Positions 28,655 to 30,357 of a stretch of DNA of 41,198 bases are shown one piece after another. Positions within the stretch are counted from its first letter, which is position 1, and every line of letters starts with the position of its first letter. The notes below the pieces were generated by a model. That model was given only the letters and a program-made list of their open reading frames with translations. It was not told the DNA's origin and made no database searches. Location of the stretch: assembly GCA_944326055.1 (NCBI GenBank), contig CALVCT010000007.1, positions 1-41,198 of the forward strand, read 5' to 3'. The stretch comes from an uncultured Erysipelotrichaceae bacterium. GTDB lineage: Bacteria; Bacillota_I; Bacilli_A; Erysipelotrichales; Erysipelotrichaceae. A program made the position numbers and the translations under genes.

Positions 28655-29257
28655 ATGCAAGTAGAGACTATCATTACCGGTGCTTTTGAGACTAATACAT
28701 ATATCTTGACCATCGATGGTGAACATCTTATCATCGATCCCAGCGGTAAAAAAGAAAGGATCATAACACATATCGATGGCCAAGTAGATGCCATTCTTTT
28801 GACTCATGGTCACTTCGATCATATCAAGGCCGTAGATGATCTACATGAGTATTATGGTTGTCCTATCTATATGAATTCAAGTGATGCAGATCTTGTCGAT
28901 CCACTACTTTCTAAGACGACTAATACGATGGGACCATTCAGTGCTTCGATAAGCTCAAAGATCGATTTTATCAAAGAGGGCACGATGAAGATCGGACCTT
29001 TTAGTTTTGAAGTAGTCTTTACACCAGGACACACCAAGGGCTCAGTGATATATATTTTTGATGATATGGTCTTTACGGGAGACACGCTTTTTAAAGAGAG
29101 CGTTGGACGTACAGATCTTTATGGCGGTTCTGATCGAGAGCTAAAGATGTCGCTTCGTATTTTGAAAGAACTAGACGCAGACTATCTCATTTATCCTGGC
29201 CACGGTCCAAGCTCAAAGGTCGAGCACGAACTTTTATACAACCCCTTTTTGAAGTAA
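28655..29257 (+). CDS. metallo-beta-lactamase-fold hydrolase (YqgX/glyoxalase II-like)
   Basis: A 200-residue metal-dependent hydrolase. THGHFDHIKAV supplies the HxHxDH metal ligands, TPGHTKGSVIY the next His, FTGDTLF the bridging Asp and YPGHGP the last His. It is the short form lacking the glyoxalase II C-terminal domain; the natural substrate is unknown. In B. subtilis the homologous yqgX lies near comG, and here comGA follows at 117 nt. No SD before ATG 28655, which starts 6 nt after the rpmG terminator. Leaderless initiation or a promoter hidden in the hairpin is possible (TATTTT 28643-28648). Confidence 0.92.
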   Translation: MQVETIITGAFETNTYILTIDGEHLIIDPSGKKERIITHIDGQVDAILLTHGHFDHIKAVDDLHEYYGCPIYMNSSDADLVDPLLSKTTNTMGPFSASISSKIDFIKEGTMKIGPFSFEVVFTPGHTKGSVIYIFDDMVFTGDTLFKESVGRTDLYGGSDRELKMSLRILKELDADYLIYPGHGPSSKVEHELLYNPFLK

Positions 29258-29336
29258 GAGGAAGGGCCTTATGCTTAATTTAACACTTTAAACATAATTG
29301 AATCTCATCATCGATGTTTTTTAGGGATATCGAGAT

Positions 29337-29371
29337 AAGCCTCCTTATGTATAAGATGAAGGAGGCTTTTT
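29337..29371 (+). promoter_or_regulatory. hairpin that sequesters the comGA SD and resembles a terminator
   Basis: AAGCCTCCTT (29337-29346) pairs perfectly with AAGGAGGCTT (29359-29368) across a 12-nt loop, followed by T residues to 29371. The SD of comGA (AAGGAGG, 29359-29365) is the 3' arm. The structure could stop transcription, block ribosome binding, or both. No ORF or obvious promoter was found in 29258-29336. Confidence 0.65.
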
Positions 29372-29373
29372 AA

Positions 29374-30357
29374 ATGGAAGAGAGACTCAATGCCTTATTA
29401 CGTCTAGCGATCTTGCATGAAGCTTCAGATATCCATTTCACAAACTTCAAAGCAGAGACCAAAGTAGAGATGCGCATCGCCGATACGATAAAGCTTGTCA
29501 AAGGTCATCCTGACGACCGTAAGATGATACGTTACTTACAATACAAGGCTAATCTCGATGTCGGCAATCTTACAAAGCCCCAGACAGGGCAATTCGAGTG
29601 GTATTTAGATGACAGGTTCCTATCTTTGCGTTTTGCGCTGATACATAATCCAACGATGGAAAACGCAGTGCTTAGGATCCTTAATGAAGATCTTGGTTTG
29701 AAGGCAGAAAGTTTAGCGATAGCTGATGAACAGAACCGGTTCTTTAAAAGAATGATGCAACAAAGGCATGGACTTTTCATCGCATCAGGACCAACATCAA
29801 GTGGAAAGACGACAAGTCTTTATACACTACTACATGGGATCAGACATAAAAAGATCATTACGATCGAAGATCCCATCGAGATCCATTCTGAAGATTTCAT
29901 CCAGATCTCTGTCAATGAGAAAGCAGGGCTTGGTTATGATGAAGCCATCAAACAAGTCTTACGGCATGACCCTGACATCATCATGATCGGTGAGATACGT
30001 GATGAGCTCACGGCTCATATGGCGATCAGAGCAGCTAATACAGGGCATCTTGTCATAACGAGCTTACATGCTGGAAGTAGCATCTTAGCGATCGAGCGTC
30101 TGCTTGAGCTTAAGGTAGAGAAGGGTGCTCTAAAAAATGTTCTGATTGGGATATCGAATCAAAGGCTCTTTCAAAGGAAGGGCACAGAAAAGAAGATCGT
30201 CATCTATGAGACGATGGAAAGAGATGATATCTTATATTATTTTGAGAAAGGTAGGGTGAAAGATGACTTTTATAGACTTAAAGATCGGATCAAAGAAGCT
30301 CAAAGACAAGGTCTCATCGACGAAGATCTCGCTTTACAAGAACTTATTATCGCTTGA
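29374..30357 (+). CDS. comGA: competence pilus assembly ATPase ComGA
   Basis: A 327-residue GspE/PilB-type secretion ATPase that powers assembly of the DNA-uptake pilus at the inner membrane. Walker A is ASGPTSSGKTTSL (about 137-149). The Asp box is TIEDPIEI, Walker B DPDIIMIGEIRD, and the His box LVITSLHAGS. It lacks the long N-terminal domain of GspE, as usual for ComGA. ATG 29374 lies 8 nt after AAGGAGG, which is inside a hairpin. First gene of a seven-gene comG operon. No tetracysteine zinc motif is seen. Confidence 0.95.
   Translation: MEERLNALLRLAILHEASDIHFTNFKAETKVEMRIADTIKLVKGHPDDRKMIRYLQYKANLDVGNLTKPQTGQFEWYLDDRFLSLRFALIHNPTMENAVLRILNEDLGLKAESLAIADEQNRFFKRMMQQRHGLFIASGPTSSGKTTSLYTLLHGIRHKKIITIEDPIEIHSEDFIQISVNEKAGLGYDEAIKQVLRHDPDIIMIGEIRDELTAHMAIRAANTGHLVITSLHAGSSILAIERLLELKVEKGALKNVLIGISNQRLFQRKGTEKKIVIYETMERDDILYYFEKGRVKDDFYRLKDRIKEAQRQGLIDEDLALQELIIA

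Follow-up and report, generated by a model that had tools for sequence, protein, structure and literature searches.

A predicted competence promoter lies across a hairpin that covers the comGA Shine-Dalgarno sequence in an uncultured Erysipelotrichaceae bacterium

Introduction

Why does a competence operon surrounded by housekeeping genes carry, directly before its first start codon, a perfect hairpin that takes in the Shine-Dalgarno (SD) sequence? We addressed this question for comGA in an uncultured Erysipelotrichaceae bacterium. The window is the whole stretch of 41,198 nucleotides that was analyzed, and it belongs to a genome of 1.38 Mb. The nearest named relatives of its genus are uncultured Erysipelotrichaceae, and our comparison of the genus took in nine genomes. 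A brief look at the literature found no study of competence control in Erysipelotrichaceae.

Results

A perfect hairpin within a block of housekeeping genes

Two genes flank the hairpin:
28655..29257, + strand: metallo-beta-lactamase-fold hydrolase gene, just upstream and co-directional (Pfam Lactamase_B, 1.7e-27)
29374..30357, + strand: comGA, competence pilus ATPase, first gene of the comG operon (NCBIfam ATPase_ComGA)

The match of comGA to ATPase_ComGA (1.3e-80, 270 bits) is below the 300-bit cut-off of that model; comGC scored above its NCBIfam cut-off and comGB below its own. The first-pass annotation had proposed a competence operon of seven genes. Its members comGA, comGB and comGC were recognized, and seven genes are plausible by the order of the ORFs. 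On the same strand upstream of comG lie murG, murB, a divIB-like ORF (named by its position; a Pfam search returned no match) and the metallo-hydrolase gene, and efp is found downstream of the competence operon. Because the operon sits inside this housekeeping block, read-through is to be expected, and the hydrolase gene is the likely source of the read-through RNA.

The hairpin is composed of the following elements:
29337..29346, + strand: 5' arm, AAGCCTCCTT, mostly inside the predicted -35/-10 spacer
29347..29358, + strand: loop of 12 nt, ATGTATAAGATG (exact sequence)
29359..29368, + strand: 3' arm, AAGGAGGCTT (exact sequence), which holds the comGA SD AAGGAGG
29367..29371, + strand: T-run TTTTT after the stem, a possible terminator tract for read-through RNA

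The 10-bp stem (29337-29346 with 29359-29368) has no mismatch, and the T-run is followed by AA and then by the ATG of comGA at 29374. The perfect hairpin described in the first-pass annotation, with the SD in its 3' arm and T residues before the ATG, is therefore exact. The predicted fold of the 101-nt region reached -27.9 kcal/mol (z -2.6), a value matched by one of 200 shuffles, and it places the SD within a stable helix of the longer RNA. A hidden SD and a terminator-like shape, as had been suggested, are predicted for any RNA that contains both arms. With the SD side kept constant, shuffling of the 54 nt before it (dinucleotides preserved) gave equal pairing in 1.5% of 3000 shuffles, and in 3.5% in a second run of 200 shuffles. 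A chance origin of the hairpin appears unlikely, though not astronomically so when the strong SD is allowed for.

With its G+C-rich 10-bp stem and TTTTT, the hairpin has the shape of an intrinsic terminator, yet its 12-nt loop is long and its tract short; it was absent from a simple terminator scan with loops of 3-8. A separate structure lies farther upstream:
29290..29319, + strand: weak hairpin resembling a terminator, 5' of the promoter, -4.1 kcal/mol

The five members of the genus outside the four-species clade of the window (G000, which is the window's genome, G002, G004 and G008) possess clearly stronger upstream terminators (-6.7 to -10.8). Since the clade lacks the strong upstream terminator of its neighbours, a gate further downstream would be useful; this loss counts as one evolutionary event. 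The idea that the hairpin replaced a lost terminator was rejected family-wide (p 0.85) and fits one clade within the genus.

A sigma-H-like promoter motif recurs before competence genes

We collected sequences upstream of comGA at the level of genus, family and order, and these condensed into 136 clusters. A search for a two-block motif took a sigma-H-like consensus as its seed, with refinement on 97 sequences. In Erysipelotrichaceae, the motif before comGA consists of TTAGGAATT and GnnAATAA, mostly 12 nt apart, and it ends a few bases 5' of the SD. The motif is similar to the sigma-H consensus of Listeria (PMC4754846). Because the search was seeded, agreement with sigma-H is partly built in; independent support for the motif comes from other com genes, before which it recurs. 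Its ancestral form was found elsewhere in the genus before the comE operon (L228, L230, L231) and dprA (L119, L125), such that the motif is shared by several com operons of the genus, including the clade. In the window, the predicted promoter consists of:
29321..29329, + strand: -35 block TTAGGGATA, sigma-H-like, with position and spacing conserved in relatives; weak alone
29343..29352, + strand: -10 block CCTTATGTAT, clade pattern, running from the end of the 5' arm into the loop
about 29356-29359, + strand: predicted transcription start, at the 3' end of the loop and the next base

The start was placed from the -10 block using the usual distances between -10 and start. The clade form of the promoter is TTAGGRWT-N14-CCTTA, in which the -10 reads CCTTA; it was derived from the clade's own comG and comE sites. 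Eight perfect matches were found in G008. Three of these stand before comG, the opening gene of the comE operon and a comFA-like helicase. Of the other five, two belong to small-peptide cassettes and one to a hairpin RNA, one has no clear gene, and one is seemingly coding. In G004, dprA presents the clade pattern with one mismatch and the comE operon a looser form. The window's genome has a single perfect copy, which is that of its own comG. Taken alone, the promoter of the window scored inside the random range and its -35 block was not significant by itself. A loose promoter pattern was uninformative in this genome, with 16 matches vs 10 for the reversed control. Overall, the distribution of the motif points to a putative sigma-H-like competence regulon in Erysipelotrichaceae. 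As the first-pass annotation had held, such control looks unlike the ComK scheme.

Several non-com loci under the clade promoter, all in G008, have features of their own. At L286 (1501-1590; G008:C25:6966-7055), a perfect promoter precedes an apparent small RNA with a long stem and a 22-nt C/U-rich loop, UUUCCUUCUCCCCCUCAACUUC, potentially able to base-pair with SDs (z of the fold, -4.1). No match to this RNA was found in the window's genome. At L274 and L278 (from 1501; G008:C6 and G008:C22), the promoter precedes two near-identical cassettes of tiny hydrophobic ORFs (MSLLLIAPRTF..., then ..DILSVIALMI..CVIIKHLTKR) with a conserved inverted repeat; these resemble type I toxin-antitoxin loci. 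An SD hairpin of 10 pairs, one of them U-G, is present at L278 and is almost identical to that of the window.

We also searched for the sigma factor that might act on these promoters. Every genome of the genus encodes one short, fast-evolving, sigma-H-like protein of the sigma-70 family. For the copy of G008, sigma-H was the best match among solved structures (3mzy, 1.3e-6); its score is far below the SigH equivalog cut-offs, and its assignment is to the sigma-70 family. In the window's genome, parts of the gene lie on two contig ends with exactly 127 nt in common, a pattern that suggests a break in the assembly rather than in the gene itself. Just before this candidate sigma gene is a small ORF recognized by eye as an IS200-like transposase (L115 712-1164; G000:C39).

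Pairing between promoter spacer and SD in relatives

Across ten clade promoters with an SD, each spacer pairs with its own SD better than in permuted pairs (p 0.006), in a test that is inflated by the kinship of orthologs. The value was 0.006 without the comG site of the window and 0.018 without the two perfect stems. Several of our tests were picked after the sequences had been viewed, and the p values are therefore guides only. The comG stem of G004 was not significant.

A similar layout with other letters was found in about six other lineages (L013, L043, L053, L056, L129 and L202). The arms of L013 are TCACCTCCT and AGGAGGTGA, followed by seven T; seven T also follow the hairpins of L056 and L202, and those of L129, L043 and L053 have no T-run. 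Across lineages, T-runs of at least five before the ATG are associated with strong hairpins (p 0.01). Most relatives of comGA are without such a hairpin. Family-wide, 19 of the 136 clusters present SD hairpins at p<=0.05 (6.8 expected), but, set against 302 control genes, this excess is only borderline (14% vs 7.6%, Fisher p 0.052). A family-wide claim, clear against shuffles and swaps, was downgraded because control genes show an excess as well.

Related arrangements were seen at other loci. At the comE operon promoters of L228 (379-450) and L231 (399-470), a stem starts where the -10 ends, closes around or beside the SD and is followed by a T-rich tract (in L228, ACAGG...CCTGTTTTTTT-ATG), a variant of the layout in which transcription would start in the loop. 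Upstream of comGA in L076, an inverted repeat GCGAATTAT / ATAATTCGC has the -10 as one arm and the SD in its loop. Outside competence, a hairpin AAAACCTTCTTAT / ATAAGGAGGTTTT at L098 (9820-9868), and in a like place in L100, precedes a gene without assigned function and has the same start-in-loop layout, its loop containing the sigma-A -10 TTATAAT.

Discussion

A read-through gate and its alternatives

We consider a read-through gate with the promoter in the loop to be the best explanation for the hairpin of the window, and a probable one, though far from certain. Under this model, a competence sigma factor similar to sigma-H/ComX would direct transcription of comG from the end of the loop. 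The mRNA made from this promoter would begin near GATGAAGGAGG; because the predicted promoter lies across the hairpin, this mRNA should omit the 5' arm, leaving the hairpin unformed and the SD free. The fold of an RNA beginning at the predicted start reaches only -5.8 kcal/mol, compared with -15 for the stretch with both arms. Polymerase arriving from the upstream housekeeping genes would copy both arms, and the resulting RNA would fold, hide the SD and possibly terminate at TTTTT. The competence genes would then be translated only while their own sigma factor is active.

The main rival to this gate is that the hairpin is a by-product of the promoter without a role of its own: the clade -10 CCTTATA happens to complement the standard SD TAAGGAGG, and the other pairs are due to chance. 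This reading is unlikely but carries real weight. CCTT/AAGG is common to nearly all clade sites, some excess pairing is also observed in control genes, and the hairpin is missing from most relatives; however, the pairing beyond the shared core is site-specific, and unrelated lineages whose -10 is not CCTTA also have the hairpin (L013, L056, L202). It is less probable that the structure simply terminates the upstream gene and lies so near comGA that it overlaps the SD, hiding it incidentally. A stem followed by a T-run would suit such a terminator, as would the lack of a strong separate one in the window, L002, L003 and L202, but the T-run is missing from several hairpins (L043, L129 and comE of G008) and, family-wide, absence of the upstream terminator does not go with stronger hairpins (p 0.85).

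The first-pass annotation had instead proposed a leader-RNA switch, opened by an anti-terminator, an RNA helper, a protein or a temperature change. The comG mRNA would then start well upstream with both arms, and a signal, protein or RNA would open the SD or prevent termination. Although the hairpin would form in such a long RNA, a conserved predicted competence promoter lies across it, and we regard the switch as highly improbable. Using both gathering and relaxed thresholds, the Rfam search returned no RNA family above its own threshold; the best relaxed match was PyrR, with 22 bits vs 54 needed. The covariation of the arms, which the annotation had offered as a check, was uninformative: one change on both sides was found among five sequences, and 256 of 500 shuffles reached as much. 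An inverted repeat that acts as DNA, as the operator of a repressor or activator overlapping the promoter, is the least probable of these readings. CIRCE-like repeats of a similar kind do occur among the control genes. However, the arms differ between the co-regulated promoters of G008 (comG, comE and a peptide cassette) and so, by appearance, do not form the site of one regulator; moreover, one arm coincides with the SD every time.

Implications of the read-through gate

It is conceivable, if on balance doubtful, that hairpins with the start in the loop have repeatedly re-evolved to seal sigma-H/ComX-like competence regulons from the leaky transcription of their neighbours, such that the choice of promoter alone would decide translatability. 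If so, the position of a promoter would set a translation-level lock in a bacterial developmental program, a design so far best documented in phage T4, and accidental expression of DNA-uptake genes would be prevented. The signature to seek in other operons would be a complement of the SD within the -35/-10 spacer.

Comparison with known systems

Translational and terminator riboswitches likewise present a stem that hides the SD and a T-run after it. The hairpin of the window differs from these in having neither an Rfam match nor a conserved sensor leader and in the predicted promoter that lies across its stem, and the riboswitch reading is favoured by none of the present tests. In the transposase genes of IS10 and IS50, RNA entering from outside folds back and hides the SD, which transcripts from the element's own promoter leave exposed. 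Incoming RNA would fold and hide the SD in the window as well, but IS10 and IS50 are mobile elements of unrelated sequence without a sigma switch.

In Listeria monocytogenes, sigma-H controls comG from a comGA promoter 19 nt from the gene, and its regulon also includes comE, according to the cited passages of PMC4754846. These passages describe the features that the window resembles: an AGGA-type -35, a -10 containing AAT and a promoter about 20 nt before comGA. They mention no SD hairpin, and the clade -10 has, in contrast, drifted to CCTTA.

The closest parallel is found in phage T4. For gene e (lysozyme), soc, 49 and I-TevI, long read-through RNA forms a helix that conceals the SD (PMC3014915). 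In gene e, the DNA encoding the 5' strand of this helix also contains late promoters, which use an alternative sigma factor; the late RNA lacks that strand and is translated (PMC3014915). The case in the window concerns a chromosomal competence operon, a putative sigma-H-like factor and an added T-run. Its predicted scheme would nevertheless work like that of gene e: an SD-hiding helix in read-through RNA, and a promoter placed to omit the 5' arm.
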